Shown in pieces: positions 1 through 33,578 of a DNA stretch of 64,000 bases. The DNA is taken from contig CALDSU010000014.1 of NCBI GenBank assembly GCA_937924525.1, positions 62,001-126,000 of the forward strand. The letters run 5' to 3'. The notes below the pieces were generated by a model. The model was given only the letters and a program-made list of their open reading frames with translations. It had not been told where the DNA came from and searched no databases. The stretch comes from an uncultured Bryobacteraceae bacterium (GTDB lineage: Bacteria; Acidobacteriota; Terriglobia; Bryobacterales; Bryobacteraceae). The stretch's first letter is position 1. The number at the start of each line of letters is the position of its first letter. The translations under genes were made by a program, and so were the position numbers.

Positions 1-824
1 TCGCACAGCAGGACGGCGCGGCGCCGTTTCTGGCCTACGTGTCGTTCACCGCGCCGCACGATCCGCGCCACGCGCCACCGGACTTCGCCGCTTTGTATCC
101 GCCCGGACGGCTGTCGGCGCCGGCGAACTTCGCGCCGCAGCATCCTTTCGACAACGGGGAACTGAAGATCCGCGATGAACTCTTGGCGCCTTTTCCCCGG
201 ACCGCAGCGGTGGTCCGCGAGCACCTGGCCGCCTACTACGCCATGATCACGCACCTGGACACCCAGATCGGCCGGGTGCTGGACGCGCTGGACCGCAGCC
301 GCGCCGCCCGCGACACCCTGGTGATCTTCGCTTCCGACAACGGACTGGCGTTGGGGCAGCACGGTCTGTTCGGCAAGCAGAGCCTGTACGACCACAGCGT
401 GCGGGTGCCACTGATGTTCGCCGGTCCGGACGTGCCGCGGGGCCGCCGGACGGACTCGTTGTGCTACCTGCTGGATCTGTTCCCCACCCTTTGCGAGTTC
501 GCTGGTCTGGAGAGGACGCGCACGGTGGAAGGGGTCAGCCTGTGGCCCGCCATGCGCAACCCGGGCGCGCGCGTGCGCGACTCGCTCCTGCGGGGCTACC
601 GGAATTTCCAGCGCGCCGTCACCACCGGCGATTGGAAACTGATCCGCTACTACCCGCCCGCCGAGCCTCGCACCCAACTTTTCCATTTGCGCCGCGATCC
701 GGGAGAACGGCGAGACCTGGCCGGAGATCCCGCGCACGCGGCGCGGGTCCGCCACTTGAGCGGGCTGCTGGCAGAGTGGATGAAGCGCGCCGGCGATCCG
801 CTGGCGGCGGCTACGTCCGGATAA
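1..824 (+). CDS. Sulfatase, C-terminal part (5' end outside window)
   Basis: The frame is open from base 3 and ends at TAA 822-824, so only the last ~273 residues are present. The first visible residues read PFLAYVSFTAPHDPR, the usual sulfatase core strand. They are followed by FASDNGLALGQHGLFGK, the conserved sulfatase segment with D-N-G and the GK-lysine region, then YDHSVRVPLMFAGP. The family (type I sulfatases, alkaline-phosphatase fold) hydrolyses sulfate esters, often after export, but the catalytic Cys/Ser-x-Pro-x-Arg site lies upstream and cannot be checked. The GTG at base 39 is internal and not the real start. The 3' end overlaps convergent purN by 14 bases. Substrate is unknown. 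Confidence 0.93.
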   Translation, partial: AQQDGAAPFLAYVSFTAPHDPRHAPPDFAALYPPGRLSAPANFAPQHPFDNGELKIRDELLAPFPRTAAVVREHLAAYYAMITHLDTQIGRVLDALDRSRAARDTLVIFASDNGLALGQHGLFGKQSLYDHSVRVPLMFAGPDVPRGRRTDSLCYLLDLFPTLCEFAGLERTRTVEGVSLWPAMRNPGARVRDSLLRGYRNFQRAVTTGDWKLIRYYPPAEPRTQLFHLRRDPGERRDLAGDPAHAARVRHLSGLLAEWMKRAGDPLAAATSG

Positions 825-28890: not shown

Positions 28891-28993
28891 GTTTTGCAGC
28901 CAACTCCTTTGACTTCGTTGTTCTTTCTTAAAGTAACACAGCATCCGCGCCGGTATGATGGAAGAAAAAGCCGGGCCTGGTACTTCACCCGCC

Positions 28994-29566
28994 ATGGAAC
29001 GAGACACGTTAATGGAACAACTGCGCCGCCATCTGCCGGCCGATTCGCACGAACGCGAGATGACCGCCCGGCTGCTGGCCTTTGTGGAGGAGAATCCGGA
29101 CTGCTTCCGCCGCTCGCTCCGCGCCGGGCACGTCACCGGCTCCGCCTGGGTGGTGGATCCCGGACGCCGCTCTGCCGTCCTGGTCTATCATCGCCGGCTG
29201 GAGCGCTGGCTCCAGCCGGGCGGACATTGCGAGGCGGACAGTTCCGTCCAGGCCGCCGCGCTGCGGGAGGCAAGGGAGGAAACCGGCCTGCGCACGGTGC
29301 GGCTGGCGTCGGAGGAGATCTTCGACATCGACATCCATCCCATCCCCGCGCGCGGCGAGGAGCCGGAGCACCTCCACTACGACATCCGCTATCTGCTGGA
29401 AGCCGACCCGGCGGAGCCGCCCCGCGCCAGTTCCGAGTCCCGCGCGGTACAGTGGTTTGGACTGGAACGCATCCCCGAGTTCACTTCCGCCGAGTCGGTC
29501 CTGCGCATGGTGCGGAAAACCGTCCAGCGGCGCGCGGCTCACCCGCACGGCGCGGGATCGGCCTAA
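28994..29566 (+). CDS. Nudix hydrolase
   Basis: About 190 residues. The Nudix box matches GX5EX7REUXEEXGU: it begins GGHCEADSSVQAAALRE and ends REETGL. The family cleaves X-linked nucleoside diphosphates in the cytoplasm; the substrate is open. Possible starts are ATGs at 28955, 28958, 28994 and 29012, with no clear ribosome site; 28994 gives an N-terminus like related proteins. It is first in a tight run: the barrel gene starts 3 bases after its stop. Confidence 0.88.
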   Translation: MERDTLMEQLRRHLPADSHEREMTARLLAFVEENPDCFRRSLRAGHVTGSAWVVDPGRRSAVLVYHRRLERWLQPGGHCEADSSVQAAALREAREETGLRTVRLASEEIFDIDIHPIPARGEEPEHLHYDIRYLLEADPAEPPRASSESRAVQWFGLERIPEFTSAESVLRMVRKTVQRRAAHPHGAGSA

Positions 29567-29569
29567 CCC

Positions 29570-30775
29570 ATGGCGCTGCTCTTCATATTTGCCCTGATGG
29601 CTTGCGCGGCGGCGAGCGGGCAGCAGCCTTCGCGCACGGCGGAAATCGAGGCAGAGCGCGAGCGCAAGGCTGCGGCGCTGGAGCCCGAACAGAATCGCGG
29701 CATCGAGCGCGGACTTCTGATCCTCAACGAGAAGAAGATCGTCGAGCGCATCCTGGGGGGACTGAACGGCCTCCGCATCCGGCTTGGCGGGTTGCCCGTT
29801 GCGCAGGGCTTTGCCTTGGGTCCGGAGTACGTCCGCGAAGACCTGGTCAAAGGCAACGCCCACTTTCGCGCCGCTGCCGTGGGTTCCATCGCGCGGGCGG
29901 TCAAATACGACCTGCAATTCACCCTGCCAAAGCTCGCCAACGAGCGCGCGTTTGTGGATTTGTATTCCGCCTATAGCAACATGCCGCGAATCCAGTACTA
30001 TGGTCCCGGGCCGGATTCGGCCAAGACCGGCCGCACCTCGTTCCGGCGGGAGACGACGGAATTCGATTTCACCGGGGGTGTGCGGCCCTGGCGGCAATTC
30101 ACGATGGCGGCCAAAGGCGGCTACCTGATGGTCAACACGGGCCCCGGCAATCACCACCGGCTGGCCTCCCTCGAGCAGAACTTCAACCGCTTCACCACGC
30201 CGGGGCTGGACCGGCAGGCGGACTTCCTGCGCGGCGGCGGATACCTGCAATACGACTGGCGCGACAACCCCGGCGGGCCACGCACGGGCGGCAACTACAA
30301 GGCGGAGTTCGCCTATTATTCCGACCGCAAGTTCAGCGCCTACTCGTTCCGCGTCTTCGACGTCGAATTGCAGCAGTACATTCCGTTTTTCAACGAGCGG
30401 CGCGTGTTCGCGCTCCGCGGCAAGACCACCTTGACGGATGCCAATTTCGAGCAGCAAGTCCCGTTTTACCTCCAGCCCGTCCTGGGCGGGTCGGAGAGCG
30501 TGCGGGGCTTTCGCCCCTACCGCTTCTATGGCGACAACCTGCTGCTGTTGAACGGCGAATACCGCTGGGAGACGTTCTCCGGCCTGGACATGGCGCTGTT
30601 TGTGGACGGCGGCAAGGTGTTCGCGCGCCACGAGGAATTGAATTTTCGCGACCTGGAGGGCTCCGCCGGTTTCGGCTTCCGCTTCAACGTCCGCAACAAC
30701 GTCTTTCTGCGCGTGGATGTGGGTTTCAGCCACGAGGGTTACCAGATCTGGTTCAAGTTCAACAACGTGTTCTGA
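29570..30775 (+). CDS. BamA/TamA-like outer-membrane beta-barrel without POTRA domains
   Basis: 401 residues with a signal peptide (LLFIFALMACAAASGQ). There is a short helical linker (~20-60), then a 16-strand-type barrel rich in alternating aromatic strands. The lid-loop motif SVRGF (GGSESVRGFRPY) is the Omp85 signature, and the protein ends in Phe, as OMP beta-signals do. No POTRA repeats are present, unlike BamA. It probably secretes or inserts a partner, possibly the next gene products, which follow with a 2-base gap. That partner role is inference. Confidence 0.82.
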   Translation: MALLFIFALMACAAASGQQPSRTAEIEAERERKAAALEPEQNRGIERGLLILNEKKIVERILGGLNGLRIRLGGLPVAQGFALGPEYVREDLVKGNAHFRAAAVGSIARAVKYDLQFTLPKLANERAFVDLYSAYSNMPRIQYYGPGPDSAKTGRTSFRRETTEFDFTGGVRPWRQFTMAAKGGYLMVNTGPGNHHRLASLEQNFNRFTTPGLDRQADFLRGGGYLQYDWRDNPGGPRTGGNYKAEFAYYSDRKFSAYSFRVFDVELQQYIPFFNERRVFALRGKTTLTDANFEQQVPFYLQPVLGGSESVRGFRPYRFYGDNLLLLNGEYRWETFSGLDMALFVDGGKVFARHEELNFRDLEGSAGFGFRFNVRNNVFLRVDVGFSHEGYQIWFKFNNVF

Positions 30776-30777
30776 CC

Positions 30778-32382
30778 ATGCGCACCCGGAGCAAAGTGAT
30801 CGTGTGGATGGCCGCCGCCGGTTTGGCGGCGCCGGCGGGCGCAGTCCGCTTTTACGACGACGACCCGCTCGAGCGGGAACCCCGCCCGCGGCACGTCGAG
30901 TCGGCCCGCAGGCGCAAGATCGACGATCTCTATGACCTGATGCGCCACACGCTCGCGCTGCCGGGCGAGCGCCACACGAAGGAGCGCAGGATTCCGGCGC
31001 GAGCGGTCAACACGCTCGGCGAACCCATGGACGGCGCCTGGTATCAAGCGCGCCACTGGCGGCGGCCGCTGTCGATTGCGGAACTCGTGCGTGGTCCCGG
31101 CGCCGGCAATCCGCCGGATCCCCGCGGCCCCTGGTCCGTGATCGCCGGCAAGAACCAGGGCGTTACGCCCGGCTTTCGCATCCGCGACGCGCGCGGCGTG
31201 CGTTACGTCTTGAAGTTCGATCCCGTCACCAATCCCGAGATGGCCACCGCCGCGGACGTGATTACCTCGCGCTTCTTCCACGCGCTCGGCTATCACGTGC
31301 CGGAGTACTACCTGGTGTCTTTTCGCCGGGACCAACTGGTCATCGATCCGAAGGCGAAGATTCCGGATGAGCGCGGCCACGACCGGCCGATGAAAAGCCG
31401 GGACATCGACGAGATTCTCATGAAGGCGCCGTTGCAGGCGGACGGGACCTACCGCGCGGTGGCCAGCCTGTTCCTGTCCGGGCAGGACCTGGGGCCGTTC
31501 CGCTACTACGGCACGCGCGCCGACGACCCGAATGACATCGTGCCGCACGAACACCGCCGCGATCTGCGCGGCCTCTTCGTGTTCTGCGCCTGGCTGGGGC
31601 ATGACGATTCCCGCGCCATCAACACGCTGGACATGCTGGTGGAGGAAAACGGCCTCCGCTTCATCAAACATTACCTGATCGATTTCGGATCGACGCTGGG
31701 CAGCGCCAGCACCAAGTCCAACAGCGCACGCTCAGGCAATACCTACCTGTTCTCCCTGAAACCCGCCATCAAGGAGTTCTTCTCCTTGGGGCTGTACGTG
31801 CCGAAGTGGGCGCGCTATCGCTATCCGAACATCCCCGCGGTGGGCAAGTTTCAGGCGGACATCTTCGACCCCCAGGAGTTCTCGCCCGAGTACCCGAACC
31901 CGGCGTTCGCCAACCGGCTGCCGGACGACAACTTCTGGGCGGCGCGGCAGGTGATGGAGTTTACCGACGAACAGATCGCGGCGATCGTGAAGAGCGGCCA
32001 GTACAGCGATCCGCGGGCCACGGACCTGATCACCCGCGTCCTGATCGAGCGGCGCAACCGCGTCGGACGCCGGTACTTTTCCATGGTGCTGCCGCTGGAC
32101 CGTTTCGCCGTGCGGGAAGGCGAACTGCGGTTCGAGGACCTGGCGGTCCAGCACCGTCTGGCCGCGGCCCGCGAGTACCAGTGGGAGTGGTCCGAGTTCG
32201 ACAACGAAGCAGAACGGCACACGCCGCTGCCCGGCCACGCCTCCGCCCGAGTCCCGCGATCCCGGGCGAAATACCTGTCGGCGAAGATCGCCGCGGGAGA
32301 TCCGCACCAGACGGTGCGCGTTTATCTGCGCGCCCAGGGCGCCGGCGCATGGCAAGTGGCTGGTATCGAGCGCACCTGGTAG
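30778..32382 (+). CDS. Exported protein with kinase-like catalytic signature
   Basis: 534 residues with a signal peptide (VIVWMAAAGLAAPAGA). No named family is recognised with certainty, but an order of kinase-like elements is visible: VRYVLKFDP with Lys146 as the possible beta3 lysine; an acidic/hydrophobic helix (NPEMATAADVITSRFFHALG, Glu154); then LGHDDSRAIN, matching H-x-D-x4-N (His275, Asp277, Asn282); and LIDFGS with Asp302-Phe-Gly 20 residues later. Spacing fits a kinase fold of the HipA, CotH or Fam20 sort, acting outside the cytoplasm. The last ~200 residues are not assigned. It sits in an operon with a barrel and a phosphatase, overlapping the latter by 34 bases. Confidence 0.75.
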   Translation: MRTRSKVIVWMAAAGLAAPAGAVRFYDDDPLEREPRPRHVESARRRKIDDLYDLMRHTLALPGERHTKERRIPARAVNTLGEPMDGAWYQARHWRRPLSIAELVRGPGAGNPPDPRGPWSVIAGKNQGVTPGFRIRDARGVRYVLKFDPVTNPEMATAADVITSRFFHALGYHVPEYYLVSFRRDQLVIDPKAKIPDERGHDRPMKSRDIDEILMKAPLQADGTYRAVASLFLSGQDLGPFRYYGTRADDPNDIVPHEHRRDLRGLFVFCAWLGHDDSRAINTLDMLVEENGLRFIKHYLIDFGSTLGSASTKSNSARSGNTYLFSLKPAIKEFFSLGLYVPKWARYRYPNIPAVGKFQADIFDPQEFSPEYPNPAFANRLPDDNFWAARQVMEFTDEQIAAIVKSGQYSDPRATDLITRVLIERRNRVGRRYFSMVLPLDRFAVREGELRFEDLAVQHRLAAAREYQWEWSEFDNEAERHTPLPGHASARVPRSRAKYLSAKIAAGDPHQTVRVYLRAQGAGAWQVAGIERTW

Positions 32383-33578
32383 CGCTGCTGGCGTGGCCGC
32401 TGGCCGCGGCGCAGCATGTGTACGTCGGCGTTGTCGAACCCACCGCCGCGGTGATCGCGTGGGGCTCCACCGGCGGCGCGGGCAACACGATCGGCTTCGC
32501 CTCCGCGCCGCTGGGCGACGCCGAGCTCCGCATCGCCCAGCAGGTGCTGCGCACCAGCGAACGCAACTGGCTCCGGGTGGAAAACCTGACCCCGGACACG
32601 GATTACCCCTACGAGGTGCTGGTTGACGGGTCCCGCCTGGGGGGCGGCGTCCTGCGCACCTGGCCGCAAGCAGCGGATCGCCTGGTCTTTTTCGTGCTAG
32701 GCGATTGGGGAACCGGCAAACAGCCGCAGCACCGGCTTGCCCGCGCCATGGCCAGCGAGTACGCCGCCCGCCGTCAGCAGGGCGACTTCGTCCGCTTCGT
32801 TCTGACCACCGGAGACAACATCTACGCGGACACCTTCTTCGGCCTTCCCTGGCGCAACTCCGGCAACCAGGACGCTCACTGGGAAAAGAAGTTCTTTGCG
32901 CCTTATCGTGAGCTGCTCTCCGCGGTGCCGTTCTACGCCACGCTGGGCAACCACGACGGCAACGAGAGCGAATCGCGCGGCGACCTGCCGGTCTGTCTGG
33001 ACAACTTCTTTTCTCCCGGCGGCAAGCCGGCGCGATATTACCGTTTCGCGTTCGGCGACCTCGCCGAGTTTTTCGCGCTCGATTCCACGCGGAACCAGGA
33101 GACCGGTCCCCCGCGTCCGGAGTACCTGGAGGACGGCGCGCAATCCCGCTGGCTGCGGGAAAGCCTGGCTGCCTCGCGAGCCGCCTGGAAGATTCCCTAC
33201 TTCCACCATCCGCCCTATACCGCCGGCCCGCGCCACAGCCCGGCCCGGGAAGCGCTCGCCCACTGGATCCGCTCGTTTGAAGAACACAACGTGCGTGTGG
33301 CGTTCCACGGCCATGAGCACAACTTCCAGTTCACGGACCCCGGCCAGACCGGCGGCGTTACTTACGTGGTGACAGGCTCGGGCGGCCAACTGCGCAAAGG
33401 GAACATCCAGCGCCGCCTGGAGACGGCAAAGATCGCGGGCTGGGCCGGCCAGCATCAGTTCCTGGTCGTGGAGGTGGACCGGCGCGAGGTTCGCATCACG
33501 CCGCGTTCGTGGGAACCGGTCAGCGGCCGCGGCCCCGCCGGCCAGCCGGCGCCCCTGCCGCTGGTGATCGGGCGGTAG
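32349..33578 (+). CDS. Exported purple-acid-phosphatase-like metallophosphatase
   Basis: 409 residues with a signal peptide (HLVALLAWPLAAAQ). An N-terminal fibronectin-like domain (~22-108) is followed by a calcineurin-type metallophosphoesterase core: LGDWG (Asp119), TGDNIY (Asp156), GNHD (Asn201/His202), YFHHPPY (His286/287) and HGHEHNF (His322, His324). All metal ligands are present. It hydrolyses phosphate esters in the periplasm or outside the cell. The ATG at 32349 overlaps the kinase-like gene by 34 bases, implying coupled production. Confidence 0.9.
   Translation: MASGWYRAHLVALLAWPLAAAQHVYVGVVEPTAAVIAWGSTGGAGNTIGFASAPLGDAELRIAQQVLRTSERNWLRVENLTPDTDYPYEVLVDGSRLGGGVLRTWPQAADRLVFFVLGDWGTGKQPQHRLARAMASEYAARRQQGDFVRFVLTTGDNIYADTFFGLPWRNSGNQDAHWEKKFFAPYRELLSAVPFYATLGNHDGNESESRGDLPVCLDNFFSPGGKPARYYRFAFGDLAEFFALDSTRNQETGPPRPEYLEDGAQSRWLRESLAASRAAWKIPYFHHPPYTAGPRHSPAREALAHWIRSFEEHNVRVAFHGHEHNFQFTDPGQTGGVTYVVTGSGGQLRKGNIQRRLETAKIAGWAGQHQFLVVEVDRREVRITPRSWEPVSGRGPAGQPAPLPLVIGR

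Follow-up and report, generated by a model that had tools for sequence, protein, structure and literature searches.

An exported kinase-fold protein of Acidobacteria that is paired with a POTRA-less Omp85 barrel and often encoded near an ATP/ADP-exchanger family gene

Main finding

The window analysed here, i.e. a whole stretch of 64,000 nucleotides (nt) from an uncultured Bryobacteraceae bacterium (phylum Acidobacteriota; assembly GCA_937924525.1, contig CALDSU010000014.1, positions 62,001 to 126,000), carries at positions 30,778 to 32,382 a gene for an exported-looking protein, which an earlier note, made from the sequence alone, had read as a possible kinase. By combining structure prediction, profile comparison and a mapping of the genes around its homologs, we found a predicted kinase fold with retained catalytic residues and predicted export, a near-obligatory linkage to a gene for an Omp85 barrel, a strong enrichment of NTT/TLC-type transporter genes in the neighbourhood and recurring phosphatase genes. 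The Omp85 partner is the strongest clue to the function of the protein and the main discovery. Each of the components belongs to a known superfamily and the combination is, as far as could be seen, new: among the literature matches listed, with most subscription papers and bioRxiv preprints outside their scope, no such Omp85-kinase pair is described.

The kinase-like gene and its Omp85 partner

We collected 104 full-length homologs of the kinase-like protein in 103 loci (the named loci plus larger fetched regions, with no pair of proteins 97% identical or more), the loci being collected by the kinase and not by the barrel. In 101 of the 104 cases the gene directly upstream, in the same orientation, encodes an Omp85. 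Two of the three exceptions (L127 and L140) have only 117 and 116 nt of upstream sequence, respectively, before the contig stops, and the third (L005) is the second copy in a tandem. The two genes touch or nearly so when the signal peptide is allowed for: the distance from the Omp85 stop to the first aligned kinase residue ranges from -13 to 174 nt (median 49), and the gap itself does not exceed 50 nt in 100 of the 101 pairs (median 8), an estimate that leans small because it takes the start codon closest to the stop of the Omp85 gene. The pairwise distances among the kinases and among the Omp85s correlate strongly (Mantel r 0.82, 95 pairs, a value that none of 999 permutations reached), which is what inheritance of the two genes as a pair should produce. 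Kinase and Omp85 very probably form a functional unit.

The model of the Omp85 protein in the window (pLDDT 89.3) is a barrel of 16 strands that is preceded only by an apparent signal peptide and short helices, and its nearest structures are BamA (Z 27.7) and TamA (Z 26.6). Neither the Pfam scan nor the structure model of this protein contained a POTRA domain, i.e. the domain expected of the translocator in two-partner secretion (TpsB/TpsA) is lacking in the partner. Partner Omp85s are about 430 amino acids (aa) long (median 429 aa over the 61 with a predicted start, 35 of which make up the Omp85 profile A2).

In the window the kinase-like gene is the third in a tightly packed order of four, namely NUDIX, Omp85, kinase-like and PF00149. 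It is intact, running from the ATG at 30778 to the stop codon at 32380-32382, and its end overlaps by 34 nt with the PF00149 gene, which starts with the ATG at 32349. The NUDIX gene was seen only in the window's own genome (BLAST, 68 loci), and a promoter scan found no site. The features are as follows.

28955..29566, + strand: NUDIX hydrolase gene, 203 aa (Pfam NUDIX, 3.2e-14); first gene of the apparent operon, with the Omp85 gene 3 nt further on
29570..30775, + strand: POTRA-less Omp85 barrel, 401 aa (Pfam Omp85, 1.2e-12); the partner gene
30778..32382, + strand: exported protein with a predicted kinase fold, 534 aa (fold and HipA_2 profile match); starts 2 nt past the Omp85 stop
30778..30843, + strand: predicted signal peptide, residues ~1-22 (hydropathy and a layout common to the query and 19 homologs; putative cleavage site)
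30844..31077, + strand: conserved N-terminal segment, residues 23-100 (low pLDDT; near-invariant F25, D29, P30, N78 and R92)
31075..32097, + strand: kinase-fold domain, residues ~100-440 (structural matches in the PDB cover residues 89-437)
31213..31215, + strand: K146, the lysine of strand beta-3 (84 of 104 homologs)
31600..31623, + strand: catalytic-loop motif H275-x-D277-x4-N282 (H275 in 93, D277 in 97 and N282 in 100 of 104)
31681..31689, + strand: metal-binding motif D302-F-G (D302 in 102 of 104)
32095..32379, + strand: C-terminal beta-rich domain, residues ~440-534 (confident strands in the model)
32349..33578, + strand: exported-looking calcineurin-like phosphoesterase PF00149, 409 aa (Pfam Metallophos, 1.8e-14)

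Export signal and catalytic motif

The protein begins with the hydrophobic sequence MRTRSKVIVWMAAAGLAAPAGA, followed by VRFYDDDP, and a common layout of a hydrophobic stretch and then F-x-x-DDP is found in the query and its 19 closest homologs, in agreement with the signal peptide that the earlier note had claimed; the call comes only from a scan of hydropathy and visual inspection. A strict pattern of this layout matches 18 of the 20 sequences, L015 and L018 showing it by eye, and a looser pattern matches near the start of all 104 homologs. The conserved residues 23-100 that follow are a candidate partner-binding region.

The kinase-like signature itself, i.e. K146 in VRYVLKF, H275-x-D277-x4-N282 and D302-F-G, with D302 lying 20 residues after N282, was found in the translation exactly as it had been described. 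The pattern K-60..160-HxDx4N-15..25-DFG was also searched in a background of 4,704 other open reading frames (ORFs) from the fetched loci, each at least 150 aa long, and 22 of them match it. Of these, 21 are HRD-type kinases of the classic kind, and the remaining one (L181) belongs to the family itself and had stayed in the background. Ten shuffles of the background yielded no match, except for a single one in the ninth. A chance motif was rejected, because shuffled ORFs almost never yield the motif and the matching real ORFs are HRD kinases and a further family member.

Fold and family relationship

The AlphaFold2 model of the protein, built with 20 sequences, has a pLDDT of 77.8 and a pTM of 0.83. 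Its top structural alignment score is to CtkA of Helicobacter pylori (PDB 3akj, 3akk; Z 13.3, root mean square deviation 4.8, 241 aligned residues), which is the closest structure at only 13% identity over the aligned part, and it is followed by PI4K-II-alpha (Z 11.0), 7vkb (10.7), Fam20 (10.7), CotH (10.3) and HipA (10.2); Foldseek gave Fam20C as its best match (E 8.4e-5). The kinase-like fold put forward in the earlier note, together with the structure prediction and fold search that it had proposed as a check, is thereby borne out at the level of prediction, with the model, the structural matches at Z 10-13 to CtkA, PI4K-II, Fam20, CotH and HipA, the HipA_2 profile and the conservation pattern all in agreement, and the window protein very probably adopts a kinase fold, as far as a model can tell.

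The earlier note had further found no recognisable family. This holds in searches with the single sequence: the protein matched none of the Pfam, NCBIfam and PADLOC models, it did not match the Pfam HipA_2 model (PF20613; cut-off 27 bits) even at an E value of 5, and a PDB sequence search was without match for the single protein and for one profile, a 20-sequence profile giving two matches at chance level. It does not hold for profile comparison, which links the kinase domain to HipA_2 proteins from the same bacterial group (hhalign, E 1.8e-9 and 96% with 41 diverse sequences; E 1.4e-4 and 53% with 20 close sequences). The larger profile (A7) consists of 39 of the 41 selected kinase representatives plus two divergent sequences, with L160 and L161, which are among the most degenerate, left out. 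Five of the 20 close sequences match the HipA_2 model weakly by themselves (best E 0.018).

In view of the fold scores and the HipA_2 profile match, the family can be placed among the HipA/PI4K-like kinases, as an exported branch without a Pfam or NCBIfam name. HipA_2 shares its kinase fold, and the HipA_2 lysine, NxD and DxG align with K146, D277 and D302, respectively; unlike HipA_2, the family is exported, is about 530 aa long, has N- and C-terminal regions of its own and is encoded behind an Omp85 gene. A cytoplasmic HipA toxin was rejected on the basis of the signal peptides and the Omp85 pairing (HipB was not searched for). Fam20C, CotH and the type II PI 4-kinases resemble the window protein in predicted fold and differ from it in that there is no Pfam match. 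Membership of CotH (PF08757) was rejected, given the missing Pfam match and an hhalign probability of only 1.9% (E 0.025, with a CotH profile, A5, of 11 of the 19 CotH sequences), and so was membership of Fam20 or Fam20C, to which there is no match in Pfam or in the PDB sequence search, so that the likeness lies in the fold only. Fam20 and CotH are kinases of the secretory pathway or the spore coat. We know of no Omp85 partner for Fam20C, CotH or the type II PI 4-kinases, and of no Omp85 association for CtkA. A known defence gene was rejected for want of a PADLOC match. The structure 7vkb mentioned above is a HipA-type kinase, according to PMC9758233.

Other exported-looking kinase-like proteins were also met. 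A second, shorter family of about 320 aa has the motifs NxxDx4N and D[VL]G and a best profile match to the main family of 7.9e-18 (L162:3514-4554, + strand; L091:3047-4102, +; L092:3543-4478, +; L093:2801-3736, -); an Omp85 gene lies directly upstream in one of the four (L162). No significant match to HipA_2 was found with the divergent exported family A6 (four sequences). A third such ORF (L078:4966-6072, +), directly ahead of an Omp85-kinase pair in genome G021, matches PI3_PI4_kinase (6.7e-5) and HipA_2 (4.1e-4), both below cut-off.

Conservation and distribution

In the query and its 19 closest homologs (18 named contigs) K146, H275, D277, N282, H298, D302, F303 and G304 are invariant. Over all 104 homologs, H298 and G304 are retained in 102 and 97 cases, next to the counts listed above for K146 (84), H275 (93), D277 (97), N282 (100) and D302 (102), and H257, R261, R264 and G308 are kept throughout (104/104). 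D277, N282 and D302 occur jointly in 96 of the 104, and K146 as well in 82. Invariance of the catalytic residues, which the earlier note had proposed to check by alignment, is therefore found for most of the family and not for all of it: K146 is replaced in 20 homologs, some of which keep D-N-D with E, R, Q or another residue at this position, and eight have lost D277, N282 or D302. Homologs lacking K146, D277 or D302, which the note had named as evidence against a kinase, thus do occur at the edge of the family.

The kinase profile has matches in 64 of the 396 genomes searched in the phylum, or in 61 when G152, G344 and G400 are left out, in which the only matches are short and weak ones to the divergent family; since at most three candidates per genome were scored, misses are possible. 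Among the 61 relatives, 16 have a kinase match and 18 have CotH. The earlier expectation that a kinase of this sort would be unusual in acidobacteria is contradicted by these counts. A pattern scan of genome contigs, which reaches close relatives only, gave 18 loci, all of Acidobacteria type, one of which (L014) is the Omp85-kinase pair of the cultured strain Edaphobacter aggregans DSM 19364; the apparent restriction to one phylum rests on this single scan; no relative of the kinase was found among the plasmids and viral contigs searched. Tandem duplications occur in L005:4185-7563 (Omp85-kinase-kinase) and L110:173-6707 (Omp85-kinase-Omp85-kinase, where the contig stops within the final copy), and homologs in several pieces, apparently decaying or mis-assembled, in G030:C8:77568-78541 and G101:C5:26651-27487.

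Transporter and phosphatase genes in the neighbourhood

Besides Omp85, the commonest neighbour is a gene of the NTT/TLC type (PF03219), i.e. of the family that includes the ATP/ADP exchangers of plastids and parasites. It lies near 48 of the 103 loci (within ~7 kb) and in 19 loci directly downstream of the kinase on the same strand; the linked loci represent at least 15 GTDB families (36 of the 48 having genome handles) and differ in arrangement. One of the kinase-linked NTT genes is that at L012:7554-8927. By chance, 0.7-1.8 of 103 loci would be expected to have such a neighbour, assuming 2-5 NTT genes per 5 Mb and independence. The counts of NTT, PAP2 and PF00149 neighbours are based on profiles that we built on the neighbour clusters and are minima, as flanks stop at contig ends. 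Pfam itself was run on 25 short and five long NTTs, one PAP2 and two PF00149 proteins: 23 of the 25 short NTTs match TLC (PF03219) at E values of 0.001 or less, and four of the five long ones score above the PF03219 cut-off, L099 falling below it, the other 31 of the 36 long NTTs having been identified by our profile. The alignments A3 and A4 contain all 25 sequences each, and the short-NTT profile matches solved ADP,ATP carriers (4.3e-35 and 2.5e-27).

At the level of whole genomes, a TLC match is present in 58 of the 64 kinase-positive genomes and in 67 of the 332 others (Fisher 1.8e-27, kinship ignored), or, without the three divergent-only genomes, in 56 of 61 and 69 of 335 (Fisher 4.3e-27, kinship likewise ignored). 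PF03219 is rare elsewhere: of 14 control genomes, not one gave a score over the cut-off. In the genome from which the window comes, a single NTT gene is present, on a different contig.

In L157:4799-7339 (+ strand) a single uninterrupted ORF encodes an NTT and then an Omp85 with a signal peptide between them, i.e. a fusion or a lost stop codon, although in this single case an in-frame GTG could start the barrel separately. In 12 loci (L011, L015, L016, L018, L081, L095, L096, L098, L099, L138, L142 and L147) an HRD-type Ser/Thr kinase and an NTT are encoded on the same strand with no more than 200 nt between their ORFs. Representatives of neighbour clusters without Pfam match in L098, L146 and L147 overlap NTT genes and were taken as antisense shadows.

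Phosphatases recur as well: PAP2-type genes are found near 18 and PF00149-type genes near nine of the 103 kinase loci, the window included among the latter.

Seen from the side of the barrel, 23 places in the 61 relatives match the partner Omp85 at E values of 1e-58 or less, and 19 of these are kinase-linked. One kinase-less barrel (L251, G017:C279) directly follows genes for MlaE, an ABC ATPase and MlaD, and another (L253, G016:C61) directly follows an MlaD gene; these relatives are possibly lipid-transport barrels. A PF04185 phosphoesterase adjoins the barrel in G027 and a weaker barrel relative in G035, and barrel relatives beside PF04185 genes are found at L254:5725-8489 and L255:4917-7821, both on the - strand. 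The barrel subfamily thus keeps lipid-transport and phospho-ester enzymes as neighbours. A distantly similar stand-alone barrel of the BamA/TamA family lies between two alkaline-phosphatase-type genes in L249 (Hymenobacter canadensis plasmid).

Relation to known systems

POTRA-less Omp85s have been described as the 'noNterm' group by Heinz and Lithgow (2014; PMC4104836), together with a 'Metallo' subfamily fused to PF00149; in that paper, this domain is labelled a metalloprotease, whereas the Pfam name is calcineurin-like phosphoesterase, sequence similarity between noNterm and Metallo barrels is noted, and a role in membrane-protein biogenesis is merely suggested for the POTRA-less proteins. 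The window partner resembles the noNterm group in being an Omp85 barrel without POTRA, and the tie of Metallo barrels to PF00149 is echoed near the partner in the window and in eight other loci. What differs is the enzyme, here a separate exported kinase-fold protein, and the word 'kinase' is absent from the text of PMC4104836. PlpD-type patatin-Omp85 proteins likewise tie an enzyme to an Omp85 barrel but, according to PMC4104836 and PMC11116518, they are fused, contain POTRA and carry a lipase, not a kinase. As to the transporters, the genes near the kinase loci belong to the NTT family, members of which were reported from free-living bacteria by Major et al. (2017; PMC5381601), with roles unknown and with NTT-HEAT fusions; in that text the words 'kinase' and 'periplasm' are absent and no link to a kinase is described.

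Proposed mechanism and its alternatives

We favour, with moderate confidence, the reading that the protein is an active phosphotransferase of the envelope, belongs to the HipA / PI4K-II / Fam20 class and functions together with a POTRA-less Omp85 of its own; catalysis, the supply of ATP, location and substrate are what we infer here. The kinase would be exported by Sec, and the Omp85 would hold it at the outer membrane or pass it through, with residues 23-100 as the putative contact to the barrel. An NTT exchanger in the inner membrane would bring ATP; its gene is linked in roughly half of the loci and may lie elsewhere in the genome in the others. The kinase would then phosphorylate a molecule of the envelope, and phosphatases of the PAP2 or PF00149 type would remove the phosphate. 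Our first guess at the acceptor is a lipid or lipid-linked head group, which is favoured because of the PAP2 neighbours, the Mla-linked barrel relatives and the PI4K-like fold; a protein is possible too, and a lipid as the substrate must by itself be called rather unlikely. The exported protein in this genome is probably an active phosphotransferase. The NTT as its source of ATP is plausible, at somewhat less than even confidence, and the complete scheme must be called less likely than not. In it, free-living Gram-negative soil bacteria would have an extra-cytoplasmic phosphorylation system driven by ATP: an NTT would exchange cytoplasmic ATP for used ADP, a HipA-class kinase docked on the Omp85 would act on a lipid or protein of the outer membrane, and enzymes of the PAP2 or PF00149 type would reset it.

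Several observations weigh against this interpretation. On the side of the kinase, 22 of the 104 homologs are without at least one of K146, D277, N282 and D302, and L156, L160 and L161 look like pseudokinases, so that catalysis cannot be the job of every family member; moreover, 10 of the 20 members without K146 still have an NTT neighbour. On the side of the barrel, the four remaining of the 23 strong partner-type barrels (in G017, G049:C102, G016:C61 and G027) are without a kinase. The linked NTTs are divergent: 13 of the 25 also match MFS_1, the NTT profile also matches, far more weakly (1.2e-4), the sugar-phosphate exchanger SLC37A4, and one of the glutamates essential in plant NTTs seems absent from them. 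Finally, 55 of the 103 loci, including that of the window, have no NTT nearby, NTT genes are common without the kinase (as in the 67 kinase-negative genomes above), only one of 36 loci around TLC matches (L181) holds a kinase, which is not a fair rate, as most were picked away from kinase loci, and the test of co-occurrence was made without correction for phylogeny.

The degenerate members bring up the alternative that the fold serves without phosphotransfer, as a pseudokinase, in another reaction (transfer of AMP or glutamate) or as a regulatory scaffold for the Omp85. The full retention of H257, R261, R264 and G308 next to the 22 degenerate proteins fits such a role, and to our knowledge there is no established periplasmic pool of ATP, which counts in the same direction. 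We nevertheless hold it to be quite improbable, with D-N-D kept in 96 and all four positions in 82 of the 104 homologs, the window protein intact at the catalytic positions and an NTT enrichment that suggests the use of nucleotides. A dedicated secretion pair, in which the Omp85 would be a translocator of the two-partner-secretion or PlpD-like kind and the kinase would be placed on the surface or released to act on other cells or extracellular material, is a little less far-fetched and still unlikely. The strict pairing with the barrel gene first agrees with it, and the conserved, poorly modelled segment after the signal peptide could be a targeting signal. Extracellular ATP is scarce, however, and a kinase at the surface would gain little from an exchanger located in the inner membrane. 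Enzyme-linked Omp85 barrels are known (PlpD; the PF00149 'Metallo' type of PMC4104836), but the partner is without the POTRA that, according to PMC9355242, binds the incoming substrate in FhaC-type translocators.

A further alternative concerns the NTT genes only, whose enrichment might have another cause, such as import or salvage of nucleotides in the envelope or service to the adjacent HEAT or Ser/Thr-kinase genes, with nothing but a neighbourhood in common; this we regard as a real, if somewhat doubtful, possibility. It draws on the many NTT genes that occur without the kinase, on the 12 loci in which an HRD-type kinase ORF closely adjoins a same-strand NTT and on the roles of free-living NTTs, given as unknown in PMC5381601. 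The 19 loci in which a same-strand NTT stands directly behind the kinase speak against it, as do an arrangement that varies between families and the one NTT that is fused to an Omp85.

Implications

If the complete scheme proposed above holds, the kinases of the secretory pathway would have a counterpart in bacteria, with an ATP supply line of its own. The periplasm is usually assumed to be free of ATP, and kinases are not expected there; the conserved set of an exported kinase-fold protein, a barrel and, at roughly every second locus, an exchanger-family gene would open this assumption to a direct test. The POTRA-less Omp85s and the NTTs of free-living bacteria, neither of which has a proven role according to PMC4104836 and PMC5381601, respectively, would likewise gain a first functional setting.

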